Shown piece by piece: positions 18,657 through 23,140 of a stretch of 64,000 nt of DNA. The notes below the pieces were generated by a model, which worked only from the letters and a program-made list of their open reading frames with translations, was not told where the DNA came from and searched no databases. Positions within the stretch are counted from its first letter, which is position 1. Each line of letters begins with the position of its first letter. Source of the DNA: Terriglobia bacterium (GTDB taxonomy: Bacteria; Acidobacteriota; Terriglobia; Terriglobales; Acidobacteriaceae); assembly GCA_021324365.1 (NCBI GenBank), contig JAJPJE010000123.1, forward strand, positions 1 through 64,000. The letters run 5' to 3'. The translations under genes were made by a program, and so were the position numbers.

Positions 18657-19919
18657 CTAATTTTCAGCGCGAAGCGCTTCGATCGGCTCCAATCGGGACG
18701 CCTTGAACGCCGGCCAGAAGCCGCTACTGATACCAACAAAGGCGAGGATCGTGAATGAGATGATCATCACGTTCGCCGAAGCGCGCAGGAAGATGTCGCC
18801 TTCATTATTTAGGGTCTTATAGAACCCGCTGTAAAGTGGCAGAGGCGGAATCACTACTGTCAGCAGCCAGGAAAGAATGATTCCAGCGGCGCCTCCCAGA
18901 AATGTAAGCACGAGTGCCTCAACAAGAAATTGACTGAGAATGTTGCATCGACGGGCACCGAGCGCTTTGAGCAGGCCAATTTCTTTGGTCCTCTCCGTGA
19001 CGCTTACCAGCATGATGTTCATCACGCCCACACCGCCAACGCCGAGCGTGAGAGCACCGATGATGCCCATGATCGCTTCCAACCCGATGGTGAAGGCCTG
19101 AAGCATCTTACCGGTTTCGACCGTGTCCCATTCGGGGGTGGCTTTTTCGTCCTTCGCCTCGAAGTGATGGCGCCGTGCAATGACGCGACGCGCGGCAGCG
19201 AGCGCATCGATATGAAGCTCTTTCGCAATCGGCTGGATGAGGATCATATCCGGATCGCGCTTGTTCTTCAGTTCGTTATAGACGTCGAACGGAATGAACG
19301 CCTGTTCGTTATCTGGTCCCTCGTACATGGAATCCTGAATCTTAATGTTCATGACTCCGATCACTTCGAAGCTCTCTCCCTGCACGAGCACTGACTGCCC
19401 AACTCCCGGCGCTCCTTGAAAAATTCGCTGGGCGGCTCCGTGGCCCAGGATCACCACTCGCCGCCGATTTGTAAAATCGGCATCCTCGAAATAGCGCCCG
19501 TCTTCGAAATTGCCAATATTGCGCATGGAGCCGTAGGGATATTCAACGCCGCGCGTTGTCACTGAAACTACACGCGTCCCCATCTTGAATCCGAAATTGC
19601 TGACCGACTCGGCACTGACAGCTCGGATAATCGGAACTTCGGAGCGAATCGCTTCCACATCTTCGTATTCAAAATGGACGGAGCGACCGGCACGCTGACC
19701 TCCAGCCTGCATGCTGGTCTGTCCAGGCCAGATCACGATGACGTTGTTGCCCATGTTTCCGACCGCATGCATGATGCCGCCGCCCAGACCCTCGCCAAAC
19801 GCCAGCAGCAACACCACCGAAACCACTCCCCACGAGATGCCCAACATCGTGAGCATCGATCGCATGCGGTTGCGCCGCAGTGCCGTCCAACTTTGCTGGA
19901 TCAGTTCTTTCAGACGCAT
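18657..19919 (-). CDS. MacB-like ABC transporter permease (second of a pair)
   Basis: A 420-residue inner-membrane permease with an N-terminal helix (about 24-46), a MacB periplasmic core domain and three C-terminal helices. The FtsX signature [20 protein letters not shown] followed by [16 protein letters not shown] is present. It starts 13 bp after the stop codon of a related permease on the same strand, so the two are an operon and may form a heterodimer. The protein ends [16 protein letters not shown], as usual for the family. No ATP-binding subunit is nearby. Confidence 0.9.
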
Positions 19920-19932
19920 CGTGCACCTCAGG

Positions 19933-21192
19933 TCATTCGTAGTGCAGGCACTGAATCGGTTCGAGTTCAGCCGCGCGCCGCGCCGGATACATGCCCGCGC
20001 TGATCGTGATCAAAGAAAGGGTGAACAAAGAACCGATTACCGCAATCGGGGAAATAATTGGCCTCGGAACAAAGTCAGGAAGCGGTGCAGCCGCCATCAA
20101 GAGACAGATTCCCACGCCCAGGCAGTAACCAATGAATCCACTGAGCGCGGTGATCACAACCGATTCCGCAAAAAACTGATTCAGAATGTCGACCTTGGTG
20201 GCACCAATCGCCTTCATGATGCCGATCTCGCGCGTCCTCTCTGTGACTGCGACCAGCATAATGTTCATCACGCCAATGCCGCCAAGAGCCAGCGTGGTAA
20301 TGGCGACACAAGCAAAGAAGATAGTGATTGAGCCAAAGATGCGCGCCAGCAGCTTAGAAAACTGCATCGTGTCCCAGATAAATAGCGCGTCTTTGTCTGT
20401 CGGTTCGAAATGATGGAGCCGGCCAAGCGATCTCCGCACCTGCATTACCGCTTCGTCATGCCGCTCGGGATCGCCGACTTCCATGACGATGTCCGAGAGA
20501 TATCCTTTCACGATGGTCTCGCCCTTTTGTGGCGGGGGAGGGAAGTCGCGCGCCATTGCCGAGTAGGGCACATAGAGCATGTCATTGTCAGGCCCGCTGT
20601 AGTTCGAATTCTGTTTTTTTTCGGCCATGACGCCGATGACGGTGTACGGATAGCGCGCGATGATCAGCGTAGCGCCGACAGCCGGCTGCCCGGGATACAG
20701 CTGTTTGGCGGCGTTATATCCCAGGACAACGACGCGATTGGCGTTGGTCTCATCCTCATCTTTAATTAGCCGCCCCTCGGAGAGGATGATGGAGCGAAAA
20801 TCCTGGAACGCCGGCCAGACGCCGGAGATCTGGCGCGCCGCCGAATTGAACTGACTTACTTCGGGCACGCTGCGCTGCAGTTCGGGGCTAACCGCCTTTA
20901 CTAGATAACATTCGTCCCGGATGATGCGGGCGTCGTCGATGGTAAGCGTGACCTTGCGTCCGGCAGCCAGACCTCCTGCTTGCGCACTGGTGCGGCCTCC
21001 CCACATGATGACGAGGTCTTTGCCGAGCGTCTCCATCCGCTTTTTCTGATCTTTACTGAAGCCCATGCCGAGGCCGACCAGCAAGATCACGGATGCGATA
21101 CCCCAGACAATACCGAACATCGTCAGGAACGAACGCATCTTGTGTGCGCGGAGCGTGGCAATGGTCTGCTTGGCAATTTCGCGCAGGTTCAT
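19933..21192 (-). CDS. MacB-like ABC transporter permease (first of a pair)
   Basis: A 419-residue permease with the same architecture as its downstream neighbour: helix at about 20-43, periplasmic domain to about 270, then three helices. The signature [20 protein letters not shown] followed by IGIMKAIGATKVDIL is present, and the C-terminus is RRAAELEPIQCLHYE. The periplasmic domains of the two are clearly related but not identical, which fits an ancient tandem duplication. With no ATPase or adaptor gene adjacent, the substrate cannot be inferred. Confidence 0.9.
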   Translation of the reverse strand: MNLREIAKQTIATLRAHKMRSFLTMFGIVWGIASVILLVGLGMGFSKDQKKRMETLGKDLVIMWGGRTSAQAGGLAAGRKVTLTIDDARIIRDECYLVKAVSPELQRSVPEVSQFNSAARQISGVWPAFQDFRSIILSEGRLIKDEDETNANRVVVLGYNAAKQLYPGQPAVGATLIIARYPYTVIGVMAEKKQNSNYSGPDNDMLYVPYSAMARDFPPPPQKGETIVKGYLSDIVMEVGDPERHDEAVMQVRRSLGRLHHFEPTDKDALFIWDTMQFSKLLARIFGSITIFFACVAITTLALGGIGVMNIMLVAVTERTREIGIMKAIGATKVDILNQFFAESVVITALSGFIGYCLGVGICLLMAAAPLPDFVPRPIISPIAVIGSLFTLSLITISAGMYPARRAAELEPIQCLHYE

Positions 21193-21459: not shown

Positions 21460-22341
21460 ATGGCTCCTTCCTTCATTAATGCTTTGGGTTTTGCTGCGGC
21501 TGCACTGACCACGTTTTCGTTCGTGCCGCAGGTGCTCAAGATCCGCCGGCAGGGCGGCAAAGATCTCTCCTACATCATGCTCGGGGTCTTCTGGACCGGC
21601 GTGATGCTGTGGCTGGTCTACGGGCTGATTATGAAGGAGCCGGCGATCATTGCGGCGAACCTGGTCACGGGAATTCTGGTGATGCTCGCGATGGTGCTGA
21701 AAGCCATCATCAAAGCACCGGCTACTCCTGTGACAACGACCCGTTCTCGTCCGCGGATTGCCATCGACATGGATGAAGTGATGGCCGACAGCCTTTCGCG
21801 GCACCTCGAACTCTATAACACCGAATTCGGTGCCAGCCTGCGCAAACAGGATCTGCATGGGAAGCCGCTGCACCTGAGCGTGCCTGCGGCGCATCGCGAG
21901 CGGATCGACGAGATCGCGCTGTCTGACGGATTCTTCTGGGATCTCGACGTCATGCCCGGCTGCCAGGAAGTAATCCGCGAATTGACCGAGCACTACGATG
22001 TGTTCATCGTGACGGCGGCCATGGAATTTCCCAATTCGTTCCTGGCGAAGCACGCGTGGCTGAAAGAGCACTTTCCCTTTGTCGATATTCGCAACGTCGT
22101 GTACTGCGGCGACAAGAGCATCGTCGATGCCGACATCATGATCGACGACCGCATCCGCAATCTCGATAACTTTGCCGGCATGCGCATCCTGTTCACGGCG
22201 CCTCACAACATGAGCGAAACAAGGTTCCTGCGGGTGAACAACTGGCAGGAGGTTCGCTCGCTGCTGCTCAGCAAGGGTGCGAAGGCCGGACGGCAGACCA
22301 ACGCAGCCGAATTTGCAAACGCTCCAGCAGCGTCGGTCTAG
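21460..22341 (+). CDS. SemiSWEET-like membrane domain fused to 5'(3')-deoxyribonucleotidase (NT5C-type HAD)
   Basis: Residues 1-86 form a three-helix PQ-loop unit of the SemiSWEET family: NALGFAAAALTTFSFVPQVL with Pro23-Gln24, GGKDLSYIMLGVFWTGVMLW, and IIAANLVTGILVMLAMVLKA. A short Thr/Pro/Arg linker follows. Residues about 98-280 are an NT5C-type HAD phosphatase: motif I AIDMDEVMADS (Asp103, Asp105), motif II VTAAMEFPNS, and CGDKSIVDADIMIDDRIRNL with the motif III/IV residues. Each part looks complete. ATG at 21460 is preferred over an in-frame TTG at 21451. Membrane-tethered dephosphorylation of dNMPs or a sugar phosphate is inferred. Confidence 0.85.
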   Translation: MAPSFINALGFAAAALTTFSFVPQVLKIRRQGGKDLSYIMLGVFWTGVMLWLVYGLIMKEPAIIAANLVTGILVMLAMVLKAIIKAPATPVTTTRSRPRIAIDMDEVMADSLSRHLELYNTEFGASLRKQDLHGKPLHLSVPAAHRERIDEIALSDGFFWDLDVMPGCQEVIRELTEHYDVFIVTAAMEFPNSFLAKHAWLKEHFPFVDIRNVVYCGDKSIVDADIMIDDRIRNLDNFAGMRILFTAPHNMSETRFLRVNNWQEVRSLLLSKGAKAGRQTNAAEFANAPAASV

Positions 22342-22369
22342 AATCGCTGATAGAATTCTTCCTACCGCA

Positions 22370-23140
22370 GTGCCCTCCAGGAACAAAGCCGGGAATGAAA
22401 AGCAGCTATCGAAGTCGGCGCTGAAGTTGCGCTTGCTGAAGCGGCTGAAGTGCACCACCAGGTTCGAGCGCGAACTCTGGACCGGAGGCGCGCAACTGGT
22501 CGCAGGTGTCGACGAAGTTGGACGCGGCGCTCTCTTCGGCCCAGTCGTCGCTGGCGCAGTCATACTCGATCCGAAATACCGCATCAAGGGACTGCGCGAC
22601 TCGAAACTGCTTCCGGCAAAAACCCGCGAGATTCTCTCCGAGCGCATCAAGCAGCACTGTATAGCCTGGGCCATAGCAGCCGTCGATGTCGCCCGCATCG
22701 ATCAGCTCAACATCTATCATGCGACACGGCTTGCCATGACCGAGGCAGTGCAGGCACTTTGTCCTGTGCCGGATTGCCTCCTCATCGATGCCCTGAAGCT
22801 GCCCTCGCTCACTTGCCAGCAGAAGGCCATCATCCACGGCGATGCGCTTTCCGCCTCGATTGCGGCCGCTTCGATCGTTGCCAAAGTCGAGCGCGACCGC
22901 ATGATCTCGGCATGGGACCCCGTATTTCCCGCCTATAAGCTGGCTTCGAACAAGGGATATCGCTCTCCCGCACATATCGCCGCGTTGCGCGAGTTTGGCC
23001 CGTCGCCGCTGCACCGCCAATCCTTCGCTCCCGTGTGGAATTCAACGCACCCGCAGGAAGTCTTGGAGTTCATGCTCGAGGAGGCCGGCGATCCCGAAAC
23101 AAGTGGAGAAACAGTTCCGATCGAATCTTGTCAGGAATGA
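22370..23140 (+). CDS. rnhB: ribonuclease HII
   Basis: Cleaves the RNA strand of RNA-DNA hybrids and initiates removal of misincorporated ribonucleotides. A GTG start at 22370 gives 256 residues and avoids overlap with the upstream gene; the open frame extends to 22277, so an earlier start is possible. Active-site motifs are visible: VAGVDEVGRGALFGPVVAGA with the Asp-Glu pair, KLLPAKTREIL, DCLLIDALKLP with the third Asp, and the SIVAKVERDRMI segment. The N-terminal ~35 residues are a basic extension. It is probably cotranscribed with the SemiSWEET fusion gene 28 bp upstream. Confidence 0.93.
   Translation: MPSRNKAGNEKQLSKSALKLRLLKRLKCTTRFERELWTGGAQLVAGVDEVGRGALFGPVVAGAVILDPKYRIKGLRDSKLLPAKTREILSERIKQHCIAWAIAAVDVARIDQLNIYHATRLAMTEAVQALCPVPDCLLIDALKLPSLTCQQKAIIHGDALSASIAAASIVAKVERDRMISAWDPVFPAYKLASNKGYRSPAHIAALREFGPSPLHRQSFAPVWNSTHPQEVLEFMLEEAGDPETSGETVPIESCQE

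Follow-up and report, generated by a model that had tools for sequence, protein, structure and literature searches.

A SemiSWEET transporter domain and an NT5C-type phosphatase are fused in a single protein of Acidobacteriota. The gene occupies positions 21460..22341 on the plus strand of the window, i.e., the whole 64,000-nucleotide stretch of DNA that was analyzed, and a fusion with the same order of domains is present in 12 genomes, the window's included, from two Acidobacteriota classes. Both domains are already known, and it is their combination, together with a neighboring regulator, that is new as far as we have seen. We put the chance at about even that the fusion works as an inner-membrane, inducible module for dephosphorylation and export.

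The reading frame is uninterrupted from 21460 to a stop codon ending at 22341. The list of open reading frames places its start at TTG 21451; ATG 21460 is the likelier start, giving a protein of 293 residues. Profiles, an AlphaFold2 model and a fold match delimit a three-helix PQ-loop SemiSWEET domain at residues 1-85 (21460..21714, plus strand), and an NT5C-type HAD phosphatase domain at residues 99-271 (21754..22272, plus strand) is defined by Pfam, the model and a fold match. Between them lies a basic, Thr/Pro/Arg-rich linker (residues 86-98; 21715..21753, plus strand) that the alignment and dN/dS values indicate to be loosely constrained. The AlphaFold2 monomer model has a pLDDT of 89.8 and a pTM of 0.77, with a pLDDT of 68 in the block of residues 81-90, at the linker.

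The N-terminal half passes the Pfam PQ-loop profile PF04193, scoring 22.3 bits over residues 6-60 where 22 are required. It falls below the cut-offs of MtN3_slv (18.8 against 23.7 bits) and of NCBIfam SemiSWEET_2 (E 4.7e-20, 71.5 bits, the curated cut-off being 80). It is thus a plain but more distant member of the family. In the model, TM1 is interrupted at the PQ motif and consists of helices 3-19 and 22-31; together with helices 38-58 and 61-83, it forms the three-helix bundle of the SWEET fold. Comparison with 4rng gave a target TM of 0.88, a Z score of 13.3 and an rmsd of 1.2 over 82 aligned residues, 4rng being the one match with a Z score for this part of the protein, as the others mostly span residues 94-277; the target TM with 4qnc was 0.86. 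The bundle, the PQ motif, the TM2 Trp and the TM3 Asn are shared with known SemiSWEETs of the PQ-loop/MtN3-like clan (4rng, 4qnc, 4x5m). The PQ motif P23-Q24 (21526..21531), W51 in TM2 (21610..21612) and N67 in TM3 (21658..21660), all on the plus strand, are kept in 12/12 fusions; the last two correspond to the residues given as key to the sugar site of SemiSWEETs in the available text of PMC8961523. All 12 fused units are also one residue shorter in the TM1-TM2 loop, with a glycine at position 32. This state occurs in 3 of the 18 separate SemiSWEET rows (L012, L125 and L152), the residue being present in the other 15.

The C-terminal half matches the Pfam NT5C profile PF06941 over residues 100-270 with an E of 1.4e-45 and 155.8 bits, far above the cut-off of 24.8, and superimposes on the Staphylococcus epidermidis protein 3bwv with a target TM of 0.95 (chain B), a Z score of 27.7 and an rmsd of 1.1 over 168 residues. 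The alignment locates HAD motif I, D103-M-D105, at 21766..21774, the motif III lysine, K219, at 22114..22116, and motif IV, I228-D229-D230-R231, at 22141..22152 (plus strand). Across motifs I-IV, D103, D105, T/S185, K219, D229 and D230 are kept in 12/12 fusions. A preliminary description of this locus had called both parts apparently complete and named the motifs Pro23-Gln24, Asp103-x-Asp105 and IDDR. The family profiles, the intact motifs and the match of each half to a solved fold over its length bear this out, and the three motifs are found as P23-Q24, D103-M-D105 and I228-D-D-R231. Judged from their intact pore and catalytic residues, both halves look active.

The same description had named the enzyme a 5'(3')-deoxyribonucleotidase, a name that does not hold up well at the substrate pocket. 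The nucleobase pocket of human mdN, which we take to consist of F49, F75, W76, I133 and R163, aligns with S111, K135, P136, M188 and G217 of the window protein. F at 111, F at 135 and W at 136 are all absent from the 12 fusions, while M188 and G217 are found in 104/104 rows (12 fusions and 92 separate enzymes). The separate NT5C rows are mixed, with F at 111 in 11/92 and W at 136 in 20/92. Because these mdN pocket residues are replaced in the fusions, 5'(3')-deoxyribonucleotidase should be read as an annotation name only. The fusions thus have the HAD motifs in common with the other NT5C phosphatases of PF06941 (S. epidermidis 3bwv, SPbeta YorS, human mdN/cdN) and differ at these base-pocket positions, and none of those proteins has a SemiSWEET half. 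Of the function first proposed, a link between pore and phosphatase remains plausible, whereas a nucleoside as the cargo lacks the support of the pocket residues. The structure of AtSWEET13 was solved with 2'-deoxycytidine 5'-monophosphate (dCMP) as a substrate analogue, according to the accessible part of PMC8961523, which keeps a nucleotide or nucleoside cargo in play. The GH1 glycosidase neighbors of related regulators, described below, hint weakly at sugars as the substrate.

The fusion recurs, and its distribution is patchy. Matches spanning both halves were obtained in 3/396 genomes of a sample of the phylum (the window's, G274 and G400). In the class of G400, 5/193 genomes carry the fusion (G400, G274, G489, G490 and G504), and a sixth strong match, G482 (locus L093), is without a SemiSWEET. 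The family of G009 also includes the window's genome; in a sample of this family, the fusion is present in 6/199 genomes (G009, G897, G914, G959, G997 and G991), the G897 gene being truncated by a contig end. This family sample also holds 68 separate NT5C places (matches with E up to 2e-33); in genomes with both halves separate, none are adjacent among the matches listed, and pairs on the same contig lie at least about 12 kb apart. Three Acidobacteria fusions, L021, L022 and L023, which correspond by contig number and position to G490, G489 and G504, were among the best 80 of 340 genome-contig matches. The search for fusions covered these best 80 of 340 matches, the Acidobacteriota samples, one Bacteroidota sample, and plasmid and phage records. 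Among 72,556 plasmid and 50,697 phage records, 0 covered 80% of the window protein, and in the matches listed (15 of 16 and 15 of 30, respectively) the NT5C half alone was matched.

The window comes from a draft genome assembled into 125 contigs, a setting in which an assembly join or a frameshift could in principle mimic a fusion. The occurrence of the same architecture in 11 other genomes refutes this explanation, to which we give practically no weight, and excludes chance and mis-assembly. The preliminary description had set against a real fusion the case in which this genome alone had it while close relatives had two spaced, separate genes; instead, relatives in 11 genomes have both domains in one protein. 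It knew of no protein described with this order, and we likewise found none in the open-access papers searched; no paper among them mentions both a SemiSWEET and a nucleotidase, most subscription papers lying outside this scope, and none was found on YorS or YqfW. The surveys PMC5742349 and PMC5972207, in their available parts, describe duplication and self-fusion of SWEETs and SemiSWEETs, and a nucleotidase is absent from them.

SemiSWEET matches inside other long open frames (296-711 aa among the matches listed) were considered as further fusions, and none is claimed. In six of seven such places, visual reading suggests that the residues added by the long frame are low-complexity sequence that happens to lack stops; at the seventh, L180, the frame has 102 aa.

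A single origin of all 12 fusions is possible on phylogenetic grounds. The 11 fused rows other than the window's grouped with L093 and L003 in the NT5C tree, with a support of 92, below the star mark of the tool. The free NT5C trees set the window row apart, with Bacillota enzymes nearest by distance, which suggested an independent fusion in the window; however, a tree with one clade comprising the 12 fusions, L093 and L003 fits as well as the free tree (p-AU 0.49, and 0.40 on a smaller set), and we do not retain this idea. In contrast, a clade made up of the first 7 fused rows to be found, leaving out L093 and L003, was rejected (p-AU 2e-5), which makes it necessary to assume that these two have lost the SemiSWEET half. 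In the SemiSWEET tree, which is weak, one clade of 7 fused rows was not rejected (p-AU 0.23). The one-residue loop deletion and glycine 32 in all 12 fused units agree with one origin. The NT5C trees were built without 14 near-duplicate Shouchella/Rufibacter/Bryobacterales loci, 10 repeat loci (L114-L122 and L129) and NT5C rows with E values above 1e-25; alignment A2 comprises 59 rows chosen from the remaining set.

The two clade members without a SemiSWEET half differ at their N termini. In L093 of G482 (L093:3461-5116), a single N-terminal hydrophobic helix replaces the SemiSWEET (best 19-residue mean 2.28), and in L003 of G038 the phosphatase has no N-terminal hydrophobic helix (best 19-residue mean -0.66). 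No SemiSWEET remnant was found upstream of either gene. As both keep the phosphatase without the SemiSWEET, the pore is dispensable in some lineages. A separate SemiSWEET in G915 (L152:5181-5699), 59% identical to the SemiSWEET half of the G009 fusion, shares the loop deletion; from its sequence, it is a candidate for a pre-fusion state or a split fusion.

Two features go beyond the preliminary description, namely, linked separate genes in Bacteroidota and a LysR regulator with its operator in relatives of the window gene. At three Bacteroidota loci, a separate NT5C gene is directly followed by a SemiSWEET gene, an order opposite to that of the fusion. Stop and start codons overlap as ATGA at L034:4920-5785 and L056:4977-5791, and a gap of 53 bases separates the genes at L028:4938-5845. 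L034 and L056 are related, and the tandem arrangement therefore represents one or two events. Among the matches listed for 296 Bacteroidota genomes, the seed, G449, has the only adjacent pair; in G870, also among the matches listed, the two genes lie about 3.4 kb apart on opposite strands.

A divergent gene for a LysR-type regulator adjoins the fusion in 10/10 other fusion loci with upstream DNA (L114, L147, L148, L149, L150, L151, L022, L023, L115 and L116). It shows a resemblance to the solved structures of BenM/CatM. The N-terminal DNA-binding end is present in 9 of these 10 regulators. The LysR gene at L150:4805-5542 (G997) lacks the first 59 residues, and the first half of the adjacent operator is replaced; the sequence may reflect a broken or decayed regulator, or a rearrangement. 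L021 begins 113 bases upstream of the fusion gene, a region that contains the operator and is too short to judge the regulator. In the 64 kb of the window, no match to the fusion LysR and no operator beside the fusion gene were found.

The operator-like site between the LysR and fusion genes follows, at constant spacing, the pattern ATAA-N7-TTATCA-N14-TTTCAYTGGA. Exact copies occur in 9 fusion genomes and in G482; the copy in G991 has 3 mismatches, and in G997 the second half alone is left. Conservation of the site may be partly coding, because the first half overlaps the LysR start codon. With at most 1 mismatch, the site occurred in 3/396 genomes of the phylum (two fusion loci and G433) and the reversed control in 0. 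The pattern was found in 8/198 genomes: five fusion loci, G976, where it precedes a GH1 gene, and G955 and G029, whose matches, with 2 mismatches, look like chance. A second operator site, with 3 mismatches, was seen in G400.

The regulators themselves are more widely used. In 138 loci with either half, many with short flanks, the other LysR matches were in L093 and its repeat L121, where the gene appears as two overlapping frames, perhaps through a frameshift, and in L106 and L009, where it is convergent, lies behind a separate NT5C gene, and sits on a distant branch in the LysR tree. The same operator stands, exact, before a GH1 glycosidase gene at L169:7364-9026 (G433) and at L173:4301-5982 (G976), the latter named by likeness to the G433 protein. 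Both glycosidases begin with what we take to be a twin-arginine-like N terminus. On another contig of the window's genome (contig C86 of G000; L168:2289-3792), a relative of the fusion LysR has a VOC/glyoxalase-type neighbor gene, with the operator at G000:C86:3184-3224 at 3 mismatches. This LysR is the sister of the G991 fusion regulator (support 98/99), on a long branch. From this LysR and its operator, the window lineage may have kept the regulator apart from the fusion gene. The fusion regulators do not form one clade in the LysR tree, the regulators of the GH1 and VOC genes falling among them. As the regulator group serves several targets (GH1 twice, VOC once), the substrate is not fixed by the regulon.

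An export module of the kind that we favor would operate as follows. The SemiSWEET half would dimerize, presumably forming a passive, sugar-type pore, and a cytoplasmic C terminus would place the HAD phosphatase at the cytoplasmic mouth, two per pore. The phosphatase would hydrolyze a small, sugar-bearing phosphate monoester, probably a nucleoside monophosphate or a sugar phosphate, and the neutral product would leave through the pore by facilitated diffusion, presumably outward. In most of the species found, the adjoining LysR, bound at the conserved operator, would switch the module on once its signal accumulates. The N terminus of plant SWEETs is outside and the C terminus inside, as stated in the portion of PMC8961523 consulted; by carrying this topology over to the three-helix unit, we infer that its C terminus is also inside. 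A cytoplasmic phosphatase is also consistent with the basic character of the TM1-TM2 loop and the linker in the window protein. Speaking for this module are the recurrence of the fusion in 12 genomes, the conserved pore and catalytic positions, the purifying selection described below, the complete fold of each half, the adjoining LysR with its operator and the abutting Bacteroidota genes, as well as the AtSWEET13 structure with dCMP. Counting against it are the replaced mdN pocket residues, the loss of the pore half in L093 and L003, the absence of regulator and operator beside the window gene, the shortened regulator and half operator of L150, the other targets of related regulators, and SemiSWEET dN/dS values of up to 0.71 in more distant pairs.

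A more specific form of this reading is a single-polypeptide transporter for metabolic release, in which a trapped phospho-metabolite is driven out by its hydrolysis and a dedicated LysR senses the metabolite. The phosphatase on each half of the SemiSWEET dimer would hand the neutral product straight into the pore. We advance this version tentatively and regard it as possible rather than probable. Tethering a phosphatase to a passive pore would then give the pore a direction, and the physiological cargo of a SemiSWEET could be read from the enzyme fused to it. The available text of PMC5972207 describes function as little known for all but three SemiSWEETs. The fused enzyme, the neighboring regulator and the short operator represent three independent handles, by which the question of the cargo becomes directly testable.

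Two known systems bear comparison with this model. Escherichia coli YigL, a HAD phosphatase of the glucose-phosphate stress response, dephosphorylates its substrate to a neutral sugar able to leave the cell, as described in the accessible part of PMC4021124. In contrast to the fusion, that system consists of separate proteins under sRNA control, and its exporter is not identified; the two are alike only in the way they would work. PnuC, a full-length SWEET homologue by the title of a work that PMC7221760 cites, imports a cargo that is trapped inside by NadR phosphorylation, according to the available text of that paper. A SWEET-type facilitator and a phospho-transfer step are common to PnuC/NadR and the fusion, but the chemistry is opposite, phosphorylation trapping the cargo and the phosphatase releasing it, and PnuC and NadR are separate proteins. 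If the metabolic release version is true, the fusion would be a mirror image of PnuC with NadR.

The opposite direction of transport can be envisaged as well, with the pore admitting a substrate and the phosphatase acting on a compound that is entering or has just been phosphorylated, as would happen in the scavenging of nucleotides or phosphate. SWEETs are bidirectional facilitators, and the AtSWEET13 cavity accommodates dCMP, both per the consulted part of PMC8961523. In addition, predicted GH1 glycosidases, which suggest acquisition, lie beside relatives of the regulator in two genomes. However, removal of the phosphate inside the cell abolishes trapping, which favors exit, and PnuC uptake is paired, in the available text of PMC7221760, with NadR, an enzyme that phosphorylates. 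Furthermore, no conserved kinase or uptake gene was recognized by eye among the neighbors at six loci. We consider this uptake-coupled alternative unlikely.

Sequence evolution bears on whether the pore matters at all. In the closest pair, L021/L022, the SemiSWEET half had a dN/dS of 0.21 and NT5C one of 0.12, compared with 0.53 over 11 codons of the linker. Across five pairs, of which the distant ones are near saturation, dN/dS ranged from 0.21 to 0.71 for the SemiSWEET half and from 0.12 to 0.33 for NT5C, 0.71 being reached in the more distant pairs. Purifying selection acts on both halves in the compared pairs. That the SemiSWEET half had the higher value in 4/5 pairs would fit a membrane-tethered phosphatase, in which this half is mainly an anchor and transport is incidental or lost. 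L093 of G482, inside the fusion clade, points the same way, with its single-helix phosphatase beside a LysR gene (in two overlapping frames) and an exact operator. However, a mere anchor would not need the PQ motif, TM2 Trp and TM3 Asn kept in 12/12 fusions, the value of 0.21 in the closest pair also speaks against this reading, and we judge this explanation rather doubtful. A chance joining of two domains with no functional relation, followed by neutral retention, could explain the patchy occurrence in 6/199 genomes of one family and 5/193 of another class, and the two clade members (L093 and L003) without the SemiSWEET half. We find this improbable in view of the purifying selection on both halves, the survival of the fusion across two classes and the second linked arrangement in Bacteroidota.

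In the window, the fusion gene is followed on the same strand by an open frame for RNase HII (22277-23140), the start of which is uncertain, being either GTG 22277, inside the end of the fusion gene, or GTG 22370, 28 bases past its stop codon. RNase HII was not recognized by eye at six other fusion loci. Upstream, and divergent from the fusion gene, two MacB/FtsX-like permease genes are arranged in tandem on the minus strand (18657-21192), the second named by a Pfam scan and the first by its sequence.
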